Shown: piece by piece, positions 1-11,492 of the stretch
How positions within the stretch are numbered: the stretch's first letter is position 1
Layout: every line of letters starts with the position of its first letter
Source: a virus
Length of the DNA: 22,130 nucleotides
Direction: 5' to 3' (one strand)
Virus record (IMG/VR): IMGVR_UViG_3300002231_000794
Coordinates: 5,322-27,451 of that record
Notes under the pieces: model-generated
Database searches by the model: none
Told to the model about the DNA's origin: nothing
The model's input: the letters and a program-made list of their open reading frames with translations, nothing else
Translations under genes and position numbers: made by a program

Positions 1-975
1 AGGAATAGGGACCTCTCTAAAAATTTCCTTCTTATTCTTCATGTGAGATTGTAACTGATTTGTAGTCTTGTTGTAAATCTTTGAAATCTCAACATAATAT
101 GCGCCTTCTCTAATTTTTAAATCATCCCAAGTTAAAGCTGTATATTCGCTTCTCCTTAAACCTACTGCTATTAATAATGCAATTTGCATCTTTAACGACT
201 CTATAAATTTATCTGCTAAATGCCTGTGTCCCTTCATGCCGCTAATATAACCTCTGTCCGGGTCAAACATCTCAGCAAAAAATTCATTTACCTGTTCTAA
301 ATCATAACTTTTAGCTTTAGCTTTCTTCTGCTCAGACACGCCAATTGGTTCTTCTATATATCTATGAATATTTATTAATGTGTTAGCTTTATAATCAACT
401 TCAAAATTTCTAAATGCGCTAACTATCGTCTTCATATTACCGCGATAAGAAATCCAAGCCTTTCCGGTTGTAATATGTGAGTTACCACATTTGGTTGATT
501 TTTTCTTTGCTAATTCAAATAATTTTTTGCTTATTAAGTTAGGGTTAACATCTATCATTCTGTCAGTGTTCTTAATAACATCATTTAGTCTATTCATAGC
601 ATAATAATGAGAGGCTAAAGTGCTAAACGATAAGTTGCCGTCTTTATATTTAGCATACTGATTTTTCATGTGACTCGGCTTGTCGTTATCAAATTTCATT
701 AGGCGCAAACCATTCTGATCTAATTTATATTTATTAACATTATTAGATGCTTTTTCTTCTTCATATAAAAATTTGCCTGACTCACACCATTGACTAACTT
801 TTACCTTAGATGCATCAAGCGATACACCCTCTTCTGATAATTTTTGCCATTCTCTAATAAATGCCTCGCACTCTTTTATAGTTTTAAATCTTCTGCGAGG
901 TCCTCCATACCTCCGCGCATCAGCGCGAAAGTATGTGTTCCCGGTAACTAATTCTTTTTGAAATTTAGTTTTCAT
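1..975 (-). CDS. int: Tyrosine recombinase (phage integrase), C-terminus cut by window edge
   Basis: 325 codons are readable from the ATG at 975 to the window edge, with no stop, so the catalytic C-terminus lies outside. The N-terminal part (residues 1-70) starts with a small basic region, FRADARRYGGPRRRFKT, that looks like an arm-type DNA-binding domain. A helical core-binding region follows. The first catalytic arginine box is visible near residue 285 as AVGLRRSEYTALTWDDL, the usual GLRxxEl..L.W.D signature, followed by the beta strands and the HMKNKKEIFREVPIP segment that precede the HxxR box. The later HxxR, H/W and Tyr residues are not in view. An AGGGAG ribosome site lies about 7 bases before the ATG. 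It is co-directional with the structural genes but separated from them by a 338-base repeat-rich gap. It would catalyse integration and, with an excisionase, excision of the phage. Family identity is secure; activity cannot be judged from a partial gene. Confidence 0.93.
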   Translation of the reverse strand, partial: MKTKFQKELVTGNTYFRADARRYGGPRRRFKTIKECEAFIREWQKLSEEGVSLDASKVKVSQWCESGKFLYEEEKASNNVNKYKLDQNGLRLMKFDNDKPSHMKNQYAKYKDGNLSFSTLASHYYAMNRLNDVIKNTDRMIDVNPNLISKKLFELAKKKSTKCGNSHITTGKAWISYRGNMKTIVSAFRNFEVDYKANTLINIHRYIEEPIGVSEQKKAKAKSYDLEQVNEFFAEMFDPDRGYISGMKGHRHLADKFIESLKMQIALLIAVGLRRSEYTALTWDDLKIREGAYYVEISKIYNKTTNQLQSHMKNKKEIFREVPIP

Positions 976-990
976 CAATTAATCTCCCTT

Positions 991-1009
991 TCTGATGTAT
1001 ATAATCAGA
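991..1009. promoter_or_regulatory. Palindrome upstream of int, candidate operator
   Basis: TCTGAT and ATCAGA form 6-base perfect arms around a 7-base spacer. On the minus strand it ends a few bases before the AGGGAG ribosome site of int. Its size and position fit a dimeric repressor or excisionase site controlling integrase expression, but no cognate regulator is visible in the window. Confidence 0.35.
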
Positions 1010-1045
1010 TAATGGCGTGTCTAATCGTTTAAGTCTACTTTTAAA

Positions 1046-1065
1046 GTCCATAAAAGGTCCATAAA
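1046..1065. repeat. Proximal GTCCAT pair (candidate integrase arm site)
   Basis: Two GTCCAT hexamers start at 1046 and 1057, one helical turn apart, joined by AAAAG. The arrangement is repeated almost exactly at 1285-1304, about 239 bases away. Paired copies flanking the int-proximal gap suggest integrase arm-type sites. This is inferred from position and spacing. Confidence 0.45.
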
Positions 1066-1230
1066 TACAGTAGTTTAGAGTGAGTTTAGATTATAATGGC
1101 TATTTTCTGCGAGTTATAGGCTATTTATTATTATTGACCCCTTGTCCCCCAGTTAAGCGGTTTAGGGTAGCAGGAAATCCAAGGTGAGCCTCAAAATCGC
1201 ATGATTGCTATATTTGCGATTCATCTAATT

Positions 1231-1260
1231 CCCTCTTATTCCCTCTTATTCCCTCTTATT
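1231..1260. repeat. Three perfect tandem copies of a 10-base repeat
   Basis: CCCTCTTATT occurs three times in a row without a mismatch, preceded by AATT and followed by TCTCCC. It is non-coding and has a period close to one helical turn. It may be an iteron-like protein-binding array in the putative attP region, or a slippage-prone repeat whose copy number varies. Confidence 0.7.
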
Positions 1261-1284
1261 TCTCCCTAGGAGTCACTTTCTTAT

Positions 1285-1304
1285 GTCCATAAAATGTCCA
1301 TAGA
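1285..1304. repeat. Distal GTCCAT pair (candidate integrase arm site)
   Basis: GTCCAT occurs at 1285 and 1296, 11 bases apart, joined by AAAAT. This is the second copy of the pair at 1046-1065 in the same orientation. It ends about 10 bases before the stop codon of the nuclease-like gene. Confidence 0.45.
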
Positions 1305-1313
1305 TATTGCTAA

Positions 1314-1643
1314 TCATTCGTATTTATTAACGAGACCGCTTTCTAGCATTTGAGCGTTTATGCTCTCTTCTTTTTCATAAGTCTTTTTTTGTTGAGGATA
1401 TAGCGTGGCAATAAACTTGCCTTCATTTTCTGATGCTACTTGATGAAGTGTTAACATAAAATCTTCAGGTAATATATCTAATAAATGATCAGTAGCTTTC
1501 GCGCCATTATTTCCGGTGGGACATACAATATGAGCTAAATGTATTCTTACATTATGTAGCCATACTGCGAAACCTAAGTTGATGGAGCACTTAATCGTTG
1601 CTCCATTAACTATTCTAACTAACTTAGCAGGATAAATATTCAT
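1314..1643 (-). CDS. Staphylococcal-nuclease-fold protein lacking catalytic residues
   Basis: The 109-residue protein follows the SNase fold pattern from end to end: LVRIVNGATIKCSINLGF where active phage nucleases have VxDGDT...I.LGF, then VRIHLAHIVCPT in place of the R-x-x-x-x-I-D-x-P-E stretch, an alanine/glycine helix start (GAKATDHLL), GKFIATL in place of GRxLAxV, and a C-terminal INAQMLESGLVNKY like VN..L...GLA..Y. Measured against nuclease motifs, DGDT is NGAT (residues 13-16), the second Asp is Val40, Glu is Thr43 and the distal Arg is Lys76; only Arg33 remains. It is therefore probably not a nuclease; a binding or structural role is inferred. Its ATG lies one base past the stop of the lipoprotein gene, so the two are likely translated together. 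It is the last gene before the int-proximal gap. Confidence 0.7.
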   Translation of the reverse strand: MNIYPAKLVRIVNGATIKCSINLGFAVWLHNVRIHLAHIVCPTGNNGAKATDHLLDILPEDFMLTLHQVASENEGKFIATLYPQQKKTYEKEESINAQMLESGLVNKYE

Positions 1644-3962: not shown

Positions 3963-4054
3963 ATAAAAAAAAGACTCACAAACGCGCACAAACGCGCATA
4001 CAGAGCCTAAGTAATACTAATTAATATAAATATATATAAACGCTTGTGTGAGCC
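3963..4054 (-). terminator. Hairpin followed by T8, possible terminator or attenuator
   Basis: Minus strand: arm GGCTCACACAAGCG, a loop of about 54 bases, arm CGCGTTTGTGAGTC, then eight T. The arms pair over 14 positions with two mismatches and one G-T wobble. The large loop is unusual for an intrinsic terminator and a second copy of the downstream arm lies inside it, so alternative pairings are possible. Attenuation is inferred, not shown. Confidence 0.35.
3977..3996. repeat. Two tandem copies of a 10-base unit
   Basis: CACAAACGCG occurs twice with no gap inside the spacer between the lysis genes. Either copy can serve as the downstream arm of the hairpin with 4041-4054, so the repeat may set two alternative RNA folds, or it may be a protein-binding site. 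Confidence 0.6.
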
Positions 4055-4268: not shown

Positions 4269-5972
4269 TTATTCTCTTAATACTGATGTGGTTTCATAAT
4301 TAGATGCAGTCGACTCTTTGTGTTCAATTGCATATTCATAAACAAACTTATTATTAGTAGGGTCAGTTATATTAACCTCTACTTGATCTATAATAGTGCC
4401 ATCTTCAGATAATCCTTGTGTCTGCGTTAGAGCAAATGATGGAGCATCTACTGATGTTGGGTTAGTTATTATAACTTGCGGAACAGCAACAGGGTCGTTT
4501 TGTTCGCTAGTGGACCAATCATAAACAGCGCTTTCTGTTTCTCTTAACTGAACATCAACAGTTAATGCTAATCCTTCTCCTGAGCCACTAGTTCCAAAGG
4601 TCCATTGCATTATTTCAAATACTTTATTTTTAATACCTAAACTCTCTAATGTAACTGAGCAGGTGTCCCCCGGTTCGAGAGCAAATTTAGTTAATTTTAA
4701 ACTAAGGTTTAAAGTCATCTGCTGTCGTGATCTTTTAAGTAATATTTTAGCTAATCGTTGAGCCATAGTGCTATCATCGGTCATTGGCAGAGGTAATTGT
4801 GCAACTAATTCTGCGCCATCTGCTGTTATAGCCGCTGAGTCACGAACTTCAGGATATGATGTAGGTTGATAATTACTCCACGCTCCTATTGCGACACCTC
4901 TAACAATATTAATTGCTTCTCTTTTACTTGGCTTGCCAATTACATTAACAGGACCGGCTAAATCGTCATCTGTTATCGTTACAGTTGGTGTTCTATATTC
5001 GCCTGCATAAACTTTAAATTTGCCATTACTAAAGACCATAAATCCTGACATACTATTTAAAATAGTTTCAATATTTTGCTGAAAGTTATGCGCTGTATCT
5101 AAAGTGCCATTGCAAGTATATCTTTTCTGTGTTCCTCCACCATCTAAACTAACTGTTTCATCACAAACATTAGCCGCCGCACTTATTAAAGTATCATCTA
5201 CCATACTTGCGCTAATTCCCATGCCATAAACTGTATTGGTTAAATAATCTCGCAATATAATAGCAGGATTTTCACTCCACCCTGTTGAAGCATCGCGTGG
5301 GTCATATAGTTGGTCGTTACCTTTAACTATTGCACTAATAGCCGGTATACCTCCGACCCAAACTTCTTGATCATAACCTAATATAACCTGTAAACAGCAT
5401 ATCCCTTTAAATTTGTCGGTAGCATTATCTAAATCAGTATTATTACCCCAAGTAGTACCGATATACTGAGTAGTTGTTCCAACTAGACCTGTATATATTG
5501 TAGCTCTTGATGAGCTATTAGGATAATAACGAGAAGGCGCTGTAACCACACCTGATGTTGAGTTAATAGTTAAAACATCATCATTAAAATAAACTGTTTC
5601 TATTTCTGCGCATTGATGTCCGGCTAATCCAATCAATACATAGAGATTACCTCTATCCATTCCGGGTGTTCCGGATTGAGAGTATTCTGCCTCTGCCATA
5701 TATAATATTGGTCCACCTACTTTAGCTCTTCCATAGATAATTTTGCGAGATGTTATTGGGTTTCTATGAGAAGTACCTCGACCTAATAGTCCGGTCATAT
5801 CAACTTTAGGCATCATTGCTCTAGCTGTGAAATATAATGGCACTCCCACTATAACTGCCTGAGCCGCCCAAGATATAACTGTGGCTAATTTTCCTGTCGC
5901 TCCAAACGCCGACGCTATAGCCGCACCTGCATCTACTATTAGCGCTGATAACCATGCTGCAAAATCAGGCAT
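4269..5972 (-). CDS. Tail tip protein J-like (GTA gp15-type), C-terminally truncated in an FN3 domain
   Basis: 567 residues. A hydrophobic N-terminal segment (about 10-55) is followed by TSHRNPITSRKIIYGRAKVGGP, a signature of J/TipJ host-specificity proteins, then the hub beta-domains and the region with WSENPAIILRDYLTN and ETILNSMSGFMVFSNGKFKV, typical of this family. A later domain contains KRSRQQMTLNLSLKLTKFAL and FALEPGDTCSV. The C-terminus enters an FN3 domain (SFALTQTQG..., YEYAIEHKESTASNYETTSVL) but stops in mid-domain at 4269; the missing half is at 3517. J closes the tail tip and contacts the host. The order tape measure, distal tail, hub, peptidase, J matches RcGTA and lambda-type tails. 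A GAGGT/AGGA-type ribosome site precedes the ATG. Confidence 0.88.
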   Translation of the reverse strand: MPDFAAWLSALIVDAGAAIASAFGATGKLATVISWAAQAVIVGVPLYFTARAMMPKVDMTGLLGRGTSHRNPITSRKIIYGRAKVGGPILYMAEAEYSQSGTPGMDRGNLYVLIGLAGHQCAEIETVYFNDDVLTINSTSGVVTAPSRYYPNSSSRATIYTGLVGTTTQYIGTTWGNNTDLDNATDKFKGICCLQVILGYDQEVWVGGIPAISAIVKGNDQLYDPRDASTGWSENPAIILRDYLTNTVYGMGISASMVDDTLISAAANVCDETVSLDGGGTQKRYTCNGTLDTAHNFQQNIETILNSMSGFMVFSNGKFKVYAGEYRTPTVTITDDDLAGPVNVIGKPSKREAINIVRGVAIGAWSNYQPTSYPEVRDSAAITADGAELVAQLPLPMTDDSTMAQRLAKILLKRSRQQMTLNLSLKLTKFALEPGDTCSVTLESLGIKNKVFEIMQWTFGTSGSGEGLALTVDVQLRETESAVYDWSTSEQNDPVAVPQVIITNPTSVDAPSFALTQTQGLSEDGTIIDQVEVNITDPTNNKFVYEYAIEHKESTASNYETTSVLRE

Positions 5973-7994: not shown

Positions 7995-9582
7995 ACTTCC
8001 GCGCCTCGCATTCTATTATCTATCATGTGTCCTTGCGATGCTTGAGCTATTGCCGGCAATAAGGATAAAATTTCAGCTCTAACTGTCGATTGAACACCTG
8101 TTGTTATATTAATTGTCTGATTTGTGCCGCCTAATTGATTATTAGGAGTGATAGTTCCGGACATTCTACCTAATGTTAGCAATTCAGGTCCTTTTTCACC
8201 GACTAAGAATGTTCCACCTGCCTTAACAGGACCGCCTAATGCTTGAGGAGTAGGTAATAATCCTTTAAAAAATGTCTCAAATGGTCCTAAAATTGGTCCG
8301 AGTATCATTTTTTGGACAAATAAGTTAACTAATGGCCGCTAATATCTGCCTTCCTAGGTCTTTAAATGCCTCTCCGACTCTTTTTGTTCCTAATATAACA
8401 TTTTCAAAAGCTTTTCCGAATGCTGTTGTAAATGAGGCGGCGTGACCTTAGAGCGGCTCCTCTAAAATCTTCAACCTTGGTCCTTAATTTATTAAAAGCA
8501 CTTACTGCGTTTTTACTTTCTCCTACTAAATTTGTTAAACCTATTGTTTCCGATAATTCGTTTTCACTCTTTGTGGTATTTAAAAGATTTTTAGCCGCAT
8601 CTCCGACTTTATCAATACCGGCTCTTAACTTAGCGACATCCTTCTGACCTTTTTCAATAGCCATAAAGAAACCTTCTTTAATAGGTTCTTCTCCGACTAA
8701 CCAATCCGGAATATTATTAACCATCATCCCAATAGCATGGGACATCTTTAATATACCTTCATATCCTGAGACTATTCCGTGACTTAATCTAACGAATATA
8801 TCGAGTAACTTTTGTGCGGCTCTTTGTGGTCCACCATTCTCACTAAATTGTTTTGAAAATTTAATCGCTATCTCGACCATTTTAGTCATTGCCGGTATTA
8901 ATCCGACTAAGAATGTTCTAAATACACCTGCTCCGATTGTTTTTAATAAAAAGAAGTCATCGTTAAATTTTTCAATGCTAGCTGAAGCTTCTGCATTTAA
9001 GACTAAACCAAACTTAATAGCATCTTCTTGCATCTGCGTTAAAGCTTCTGAACCTAACTCTAACACTTGGATCATAGCCATACCACCTTTACCAAATAAT
9101 TGGAAAGATAGAGTGGCTTTTTCTTGTTGCGTTGCAAGACCTGCTATTTCATCTGATAATCTTTTAAACCTTTCATCAGGTGACAGTCTATTTAACTCAT
9201 GTACAGACAAATTAAGAGCTTCTAAAGCATATCTAGCAGTACCTATACCCTGCTCTGCCTCACCTAAGTTCTTCTCCATCTTTTCTAATGTCTTTTGAAC
9301 AGTAGATATTTTCTCGCCGGCAAGTGCGGCGGCTAATTCAAAGCCACCTAACTGTTTGGTAGTTAAACCAATCCTGTCAGCCATCTTCTTATTAGCATCG
9401 ACTGACTCTAAGGTTCTTTGCGTTAAGATACCGAGTCCTGCAATACCTGCGAGAGCTACTAGACCTGTTTTAAAGTTAAATACTGCTTTTTTAGCTATAC
9501 TTAGTGACCTAGTAAAACCTCTAAACACTCCACGCGTTAGGTCTTTAGCTACTAGTAGCGTGCTTAATTTTGCTTGACTCAT
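7991..9582 (-). CDS. Tail tape measure protein, frame broken twice
   Basis: The main piece (9582-8404, 392 aa) begins MSQAKLSTLLVAKDLTRGVFRGF. It has a glycine-rich hydrophobic segment (FKTGLVALAGIAGLGI) and long helical stretches (ERFKRLSDEIAGLATQQEKA; EKFNDDFF) typical of tape measures. After about 8445 the sequence continues in another frame as SFTTAFGKAFENVILG and GEAFKDLGRQILAAI, then shifts again near 8332 into LFVQKMILGPILG and the C-terminal FLVGEKGPELLTLGRMSGTI motif common at tape measure ends. Repaired length is about 530 residues, short for the family and predicting a short tail. Its start overlaps the end of the chaperone GT product. The two shifts, about 110 bases apart, look like sequence errors. 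Confidence 0.82.
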
Positions 9583-10104: not shown

Positions 10105-10512
10105 TTATGGTGCTGTTGCTTGTGATAGTGCGCCTGTGCCTGTTAAACTAACTGATGCAGTTAGTAATCCATTAGCTGACTCACTCCAATCAAGCGAAGA
10201 AACTAAACAATCTCCTGAATAGTATTTATCCACGCCTGATGTTGTTCCTTCTACATAGAAAGAAACTGTTACGCTTGATCCACCGCCTGCACAAGCAGTT
10301 AGTAAAGCCGCGCCTGCTGTATCTGCATCATCAAAAAATAAATTAACTGAACCAGACCAAGACTCAAGTGTGTTGATGAATGATTTGCTAGTTGTTCCGA
10401 TTGATGATGTTTCAACGCTATCTACTGTTTTATTAAATGAGAAGTCAGTAACTTGACCCAATGTATCTGAGCCGACTTTAACTACTGCTTCATAACCTTT
10501 AGCTATTGCCAT
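10105..10512 (-). CDS. Major tail tube protein
   Basis: 135 residues, Ser/Thr/Gly-rich and almost all beta. It starts MAIAKGYEAVVKVGSDTLGQVTDFSFNK, has a central ESWSGSVNLFFDDAD and ends with GDCLVSSLDWSESANGLLTASVSLTGTG, matching TP901-1/lambda-V type tube proteins (substitution-tested strands separated by a long loop). The gene lies between the tail terminator and the chaperone, the canonical place. A GGAGATATTATT leader carries the ribosome site. The product would polymerise as hexamer rings around the tape measure to form the tail tube. Confidence 0.85.
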   Translation of the reverse strand: MAIAKGYEAVVKVGSDTLGQVTDFSFNKTVDSVETSSIGTTSKSFINTLESWSGSVNLFFDDADTAGAALLTACAGGGSSVTVSFYVEGTTSGVDKYYSGDCLVSSLDWSESANGLLTASVSLTGTGALSQATAP

Positions 10513-10524
10513 AATAATATCTCC

Positions 10525-10971
10525 TTAAATTATAGGTGTTTGTGAATTAGTTGCTCTTGTATAATAAAGAACATCATAATTTAATCTTATGAGTCCAATA
10601 GGTTTTTCAGACTCTGCTGTTATCTCTACCTCTGTCGAGGTTAATGATATTTCTATTGCCTTGCCATTTAAATTAGGGTCAGCTCCGAGTGCATCTTCTA
10701 CTTCTCCTGATATAGTATCTAAAGTGTTCTCTATTGATGTGTTGCCTTCTGCAATCCCTTCAATAGATACGACGCACATTCGTTTATAGGTAGATGGACT
10801 GCCATATTCACGCTCACAAGCCTCGTCGTTAGTGTAAACTAACAAACATGGTAGATTTGCGTTAGGCACTAGAGAGTATAACCTAGTGTTATAAACTTTA
10901 CTGCCTGTTGTTGTTAATCCGGTTAATGTTGTTATTATCCGGTCTCTAATTTGTTGTCTTGCGTGTGACAT
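10525..10971 (-). CDS. Tail terminator protein (lambda gpU-like)
   Basis: 148 residues. The pattern HARQQIRDRIITTLTGLTTTG..VYNTRLYSL, then LPCLLVYTNDEACE, then a long helix around an acidic SIENTLDTISGEVEDALGAD, and ending in IRLNYDVLYYTR, is that of the gpU/minor tail terminator family (R..i...L.gl.ttg..v...r.y.l....lP.l.vyt..e). It caps the tail tube and provides the surface that joins the tail to the head. Position directly before the tube gene supports this. It starts 6 bases after the upstream TAG. Confidence 0.82.
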   Translation of the reverse strand: MSHARQQIRDRIITTLTGLTTTGSKVYNTRLYSLVPNANLPCLLVYTNDEACEREYGSPSTYKRMCVVSIEGIAEGNTSIENTLDTISGEVEDALGADPNLNGKAIEISLTSTEVEITAESEKPIGLIRLNYDVLYYTRATNSQTPII

Positions 10972-11304: not shown

Positions 11305-11492
11305 TACTCACTCTTCGCGTTAAGACTGCCTGTTTTTGGTTTAGCAATAACTTCTTCTACTGTTTCGTTGTTAGGTTCTGCTAATTTCGCATTTATATAT
11401 TTTTCAGCGCTATCAGGTGGGAGATCTATCACATCTCCCTTTTTTCTTTTAATACCTAAAACTTCAGTATCTTTAATTAATTTAATCTCCAC
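11304..11492 (-). CDS. Small head-connector or decoration protein, copy 2
   Basis: 62 residues starting at a GTG at 11492. GAGGAGC lies about 10 bases upstream and the start overlaps the preceding gene by 11 bases. The core EIKLIKDTEVLGIKRKKGD, followed by VIDLPPDSAEKYINAKLA, is a small SH3-like barrel plus helix (k.k..v...kGdvvdvp...A..li..g.ae). The tail is disordered and basic (AKPKTGSLNAKSE). It resembles its neighbour at 11482-11670 in pattern and size, suggesting an old duplication. Position after the capsid gene suggests a capsid decoration or connector role; the exact function is unknown. Confidence 0.6.
   Translation of the reverse strand: MEIKLIKDTEVLGIKRKKGDVIDLPPDSAEKYINAKLAEPNNETVEEVIAKPKTGSLNAKSE

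Follow-up and report, generated by a model that had tools for sequence, protein, structure and literature searches.

The gap at positions 976–1313 of the window is very probably, as judged from sequence comparisons, the attachment site (attP) used by the lambda-like tyrosine-integrase system of a marine temperate phage. The window, i.e., the whole stretch of 22,130 nucleotides analysed here, comprises bases 5322–27451 of a 31,379-base virus record (L002, for which record coordinates are used). It encodes lambda-type portal and tail genes, with a leftward-read tyrosine integrase at the left end, and the gap is bounded by the integrase start (975–978) and the stop of the next open reading frame (1314). 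A preliminary description had proposed an attP in this gap, and the proposal is supported by the adjoining tyrosine integrase and by a frame of paired repeats around a tRNA 3′ half in a relative, L038. The latter is the key evidence, since L038 is syntenic with the window and carries 11-bp pairs around what we take to be the 3′ half of tRNA-Lys. The record runs from the integrase through the gap to the nuclease unbroken, and was therefore probably sequenced in the unintegrated form. NCBIfam models had no match to the short reading frames across the gap. The anatomy of the gap, the rarity of its arrangement and the conservation of this arrangement around tRNA cores in relatives are established. 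The bounding genes and the repeats are the following:

Positions 1–975, minus strand: tyrosine integrase (PF00589), N-terminal and middle part; the rest lies outside the window in two frames.
Positions 1046–1062, minus strand: integrase-side arm-site pair (putative P′ arm), GTCCATAAAAGGTCCAT, 11-bp period; the L038 pair at 5181–5203 is likewise placed.
Positions 1072–1090, no strand assigned: AGTTTAGA pair (starts 1072 and 1083), 11 bp; not above chance.
Positions 1098–1126, no strand assigned: GGCTATTT pair (starts 1098 and 1119), 21 bp; as a pair, within chance expectation.
Positions 1231–1260, no strand assigned: three tandem CCCTCTTATT copies repeating every 10 bp in the P arm, with an inferred function as possible excisionase (RDF) sites.
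Positions 1285–1301, minus strand: nuclease-side arm-site pair (putative P arm), GTCCATAAAATGTCCAT, 11-bp period; the L038 pair at 4920–4942 is likewise placed.
Positions 1314–1643, minus strand: nuclease-like open reading frame bounding the gap (phrog_452 endonuclease; weak SNase).

All four repeat families previously described in the gap were found at their positions and spacings, but in shuffles only the GTCCAT quartet and the three 10-bp copies of CCCTCTTATT rose above chance, while AGTTTAGA and GGCTATTT did not. GTCCAT starts at 1046 and 1057 and again at 1285 and 1296, 11 bp apart in each pair, with 239 bp from the pair at one gap end to the pair at the other. Allowing up to two mismatches, GTCCATAAAAKGTCCAT had two matches in the window and none in 100 shuffles, and an exact 3 × 10 tandem was seen in 0 of 5,000 shuffles. 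An 8-mer pair of any sequence arose in 133 of 5,000 shuffles at 10–12 bp and in 108 of 5,000 at 20–22 bp; because comparable pairs thus appear in 2–3% of shuffles, AGTTTAGA and GGCTATTT are unconvincing as repeats. The first GGCTATTT copy falls within a motif common to relatives (1095–1110). Of the four families, whose phasing was previously likened to that in integrase-accessory protein complexes, only the GTCCAT quartet is therefore well supported, by its sequence pattern, as integrase arm sites, whereas AGTTTAGA and GGCTATTT stay at chance level; the 10-bp CCCTCTTATT array may represent excisionase or accessory sites.

The specificity of this arrangement was evaluated with a detector requiring one 6-mer as two tandem pairs of equal spacing (10–12 bp), the pairs lying 100–320 bp apart. 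In the 22-kb window it responded at one place only, the gap, and by this sequence criterion repeated arm-type sites flank the predicted core (GTCCAT pairs, 0 of 20,000 dinucleotide shuffles of the gap). The relatives compared are 11 loci fetched by look-up with a phosphoesterase next to the integrase, one of which (L034) comes from the L004 record, lacks the integrase start and was therefore excluded from gap counts. The detector was positive in eight of ten relative gaps (0 of 2,000 shuffles for each) and missed L039 and L040; because L037 reads like L036 and L043 shows the same match at identical offsets, counting the three once would turn 8/10 into 6/8. The hypothesis that the repeats are short duplications without function could draw on the two families at chance level and on the 10-bp array, which could be slippage, but is extremely improbable given the behaviour of the GTCCAT quartet in shuffles and an architecture matched in relatives.

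Outside the relative gaps, the detector matched only L029, the L032 repeat cluster and L033 (twice, once adjoining the integrase and once elsewhere) among 32 loci (456,986 bases), and none of ten other integrase-bearing loci fetched by integrase similarity (L013–L022). L032 and L033, the two matches of a GTCCAT-quartet scan of viral_contigs, were preselected by that pattern and are thus not independent for the detector. The L033 quartet match lies just downstream of a tyrosine integrase, and integrase adjacency was not part of the search pattern. In this high-GC contig, GCGTCCATATC repeats (11 bp) flank about 220 bp just downstream of the integrase (L033:7163–7418), which is probably an attP with similar arm sequence. 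L032 was set aside, as its repeats are a GTCCATGG-type cluster with no integrase among the open reading frames listed there; these repeats are partly palindromic and clustered at 10480–10780 in an unrelated contig. A one-arm-pair pattern match inside a coding gene of L011 was judged to be chance.

The closest syntenic case, L038 (IMGVR_UViG_3300006916_001701), has the gene order of the window, i.e., nuclease, gap, integrase and phosphoesterase. Its integrase is 24% identical to that of the window (E 3e-11; 33% at the N-terminus), and its open reading frame at 4621–4920 is 42% identical to the nuclease-like frame of the window. Both ends of its gap carry GTATTCACAAA pairs with an 11-bp period (4920–4942 and 5181–5203), between which the stretch at about 5070–5115, read by eye, presumably is the 3′ half of tRNA-Lys, from the anticodon to CCA. 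ARAGORN, which looks for whole genes, reported none at this stretch. A tRNA 3′ half is a classic attP core. L038 thus resembles the window in gene order, in a related integrase, in 11-bp arm pairs at both ends and in an accessory motif (MP′, see below), and differs in its arm sequence (GTATTCACAAA) and in its tRNA-Lys core. In other phosphoesterase relatives (L043 not included), 12-bp pairs frame a tRNA 3′ end between the phosphoesterase and the integrase, and a T-loop followed by CCA was present in all eight relative gaps examined (L037 and L043 were outside this sample). In L042, a complete tRNA-Glu gene (11363–11437) lies beside the tRNA-containing attP, in addition to the tRNA 3′ end in the core.

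Since those other relatives have their attP between the phosphoesterase and the integrase, genes that are adjacent in the phage of the window, and since the integrase frame is broken in the record, attP might lie elsewhere, e.g., at the phosphoesterase end of the integrase, leaving the gap as a degenerate leftover. However, the phosphoesterase directly follows the integrase in L004 and L038 too, L038 has its tRNA core in the nuclease–integrase gap, and the arm pairs of the window are intact, which makes this location highly unlikely. The integrase (PF00589, found as two separate matches in the record; phrog_1) is split across two frames near L002:5198–5235, left of the window, and is in a single frame in L004; because the record holds ambiguous bases, the break may be a sequencing error. 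Look-ups with the integrase returned one close relative without the N-terminus and eight distant ones in viral_contigs, and two distant matches from unrelated organisms in genome_contigs; the nuclease look-up gave nothing informative. The AlphaFold model of the integrase had a pLDDT of 44.8, and the N-terminal domain alone gave a beta-beta-alpha model (pLDDT 65.8) that matched no solved relative.

The region between the attP arms and the integrase start contains one further feature:

Positions 991–1023, minus strand: weak promoter-like TAGACA-16-TATACA for the integrase (1023–996) with an overlying inverted repeat; not found by a stricter promoter scan.

The inverted repeat, TCTGAT-GTATATA-ATCAGA at 991–1009, lies just upstream of the integrase start and is a possible operator. 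With the P′ pair upstream of the integrase, beside this inverted repeat and the promoter-like site, the repeats could be read as operators or promoter elements of the neighbouring genes, i.e., as a regulatory region of the integrase and not an attachment site. Two like pairs 239 bp apart, one of them far from the integrase at the tail of the nuclease gene, are at odds with such a role, as is the equivalent frame found around a tRNA 3′ half in L038 and around the 3′ ends of tRNAs in other relatives, and we regard a purely regulatory function as very unlikely.

Within the putative attP, comparison with the relatives points to three internal elements:

Positions 1095–1110, plus strand: AATGGCTATTTTCTGC (MP′), an accessory motif conserved in relatives and possibly bound by a DNA-bending protein.
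Positions 1119–1160, minus strand: region predicted by position only to hold the core and crossover, centred near 1138.
Positions 1191–1206, minus strand: weak candidate P-side accessory motif AATCATGCGATTTTGA, read by eye, 53 nt from 1138 (54 in L038).

With up to three mismatches, MP′ (16 bp) was found in L038, L040, L042 and L035, i.e., four of nine other loci, against none of 300 shuffles for each. Its start in L038, L040 and L042 is precisely 28 nt away from the centre of the T-loop, 8 bases past the tRNA CCA, and at this 28-nt position the motif is absent in five of eight relatives. An MP′-like motif on the P side terminates 37 nt ahead of the T-loop centre in seven of the eight relatives, two of which match it weakly (five mismatches); in L038 the distance is 54 nt. 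In local alignments, the best match of the window to a relative was MP′ in three of nine loci, with 4–9 of 500 shuffles equally good, and the other six loci were unremarkable. L037 and L043 were left out of the MP′, local-alignment and T-loop comparisons. MP′ differs from the IHF consensus.

Applying the 28-nt rule would place the crossover of the window near 1138 and the core at about 1119–1160, a sequence-based prediction with roughly even chances of being correct. Relative to this centre, the window has its arms at −163 to −147 and +76 to +92, near those of L038 (−176 to −154 and +85 to +107), in an arm geometry computed for the six relatives with detector-found pairs; the 10-bp array falls at −122 to −93, in the P arm. 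No T-loop (TTCRA) occurs on either strand of 1063–1284, unlike in the relatives, and the integration target is therefore probably not a tRNA 3′ end. Rfam had no match to the gap, and likewise missed the tRNA parts of L038 and L036, so that this negative carries no weight. A blastn comparison of the gap with phages, E. coli and plasmids was unproductive, with no E. coli match for the inner gap and unconvincing plasmid matches, and no attB emerged from these sequences. The common core may be as short as 7–8 bp according to the available text of PMC6109161, so that a short att match could be missed. Only one core-like inverted repeat, a weak one, was present in the gap; this repeat (1195–1221) was rejected as core, being at chance level (below the shuffle mean) and off the position predicted from the relatives. 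We tentatively consider, as a possible but rather doubtful extension, that, throughout this group of marine phages, a single accessory motif at set distances from the crossover (−37 and/or +28) is common to attP sites whose integrases are distant and whose tRNA targets differ, that this motif may bind a host bending factor with a specificity unlike that of the IHF of E. coli, and that the phage of the window moved the module from tRNA genes to a non-tRNA target.

Based on this anatomy, we propose a recombination scheme in which the small N-terminal domain of the integrase would hold both GTCCAT pairs (P arm, 1285–1301; P′ arm, 1046–1062) and its C-terminal domain would cut the core between them, near 1138. 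Folding of the arms and the choice of direction would fall to bending proteins bound at the 1095–1110 motif and to an excisionase, which might sit on the 10-bp array. Crossing with the host attB would then leave the nuclease end at one prophage edge and the integrase end at the other. A small protein at L002:2966–3217 is weakly similar (E 4e-4, single comparison) to the L038 protein at 8081–8416, which itself weakly matches the excisionase family phrog_66 (E 5.7e-4); both lie beyond the phosphoesterase and are, by sequence, candidate directionality factors.

This scheme follows lambda, for which the accessible part of PMC4880445 describes an Int whose N-terminal domain binds the arm sites and whose C-terminal domain binds the core sites, and an att complex of about 240 bp that is bent by IHF, Xis and Fis. 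Like the lambda attP in that account, the gap would have arm-type sites on both sides of the core, with sites for bending proteins and Xis between them, over about 240 bp; it differs in that the integrase reads away from attP and in that the arms are two like pairs. In KplE1, the attachment region and the int promoter overlap or lie side by side and int is autoregulated, as described in the available portion of PMC2951348. The attachment region of the window likewise adjoins the int promoter, as in this KplE1/HK620-type (IntS/TorI) arrangement, which would predict autoregulation; with the P′ pair directly ahead of the gene, the integrase probably represses its own expression, in line with what is reported for KplE1. 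On the other hand, no tRNA core was found in the window, and its promoter is weak and predicted. Marine phage contigs have also been linked to hosts through an attP matching a host tRNA gene, in the accessible text of PMC3861242, while no such match was found in the window.

Among named phages, Roseobacter phages such as CRP-406 are nearest, with about 50% identity in TerL and 33–38% in a tail protein to CRP-406/811/82x/831 (two proteins compared, of the CRP-822-type core genes). An exact 10-bp tandem of CACAAACGCG (2.2 copies, 3977–3998) is located in a gap between late genes of the window. The part of PMC12629253 available describes the integrase as absent in almost all members of the CRP-406 group. 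Overall, the predicted attP of the window adds a further member to a known type of system, and it indicates that a relative of marine phages said to be mostly devoid of an integrase is capable of lysogeny. The predicted core centred on 1138 offers a starting point for locating the host attB, and paired 11–12 bp repeats framing 150–260 bp beside an integrase offer a simple signature for finding attP without a host genome.
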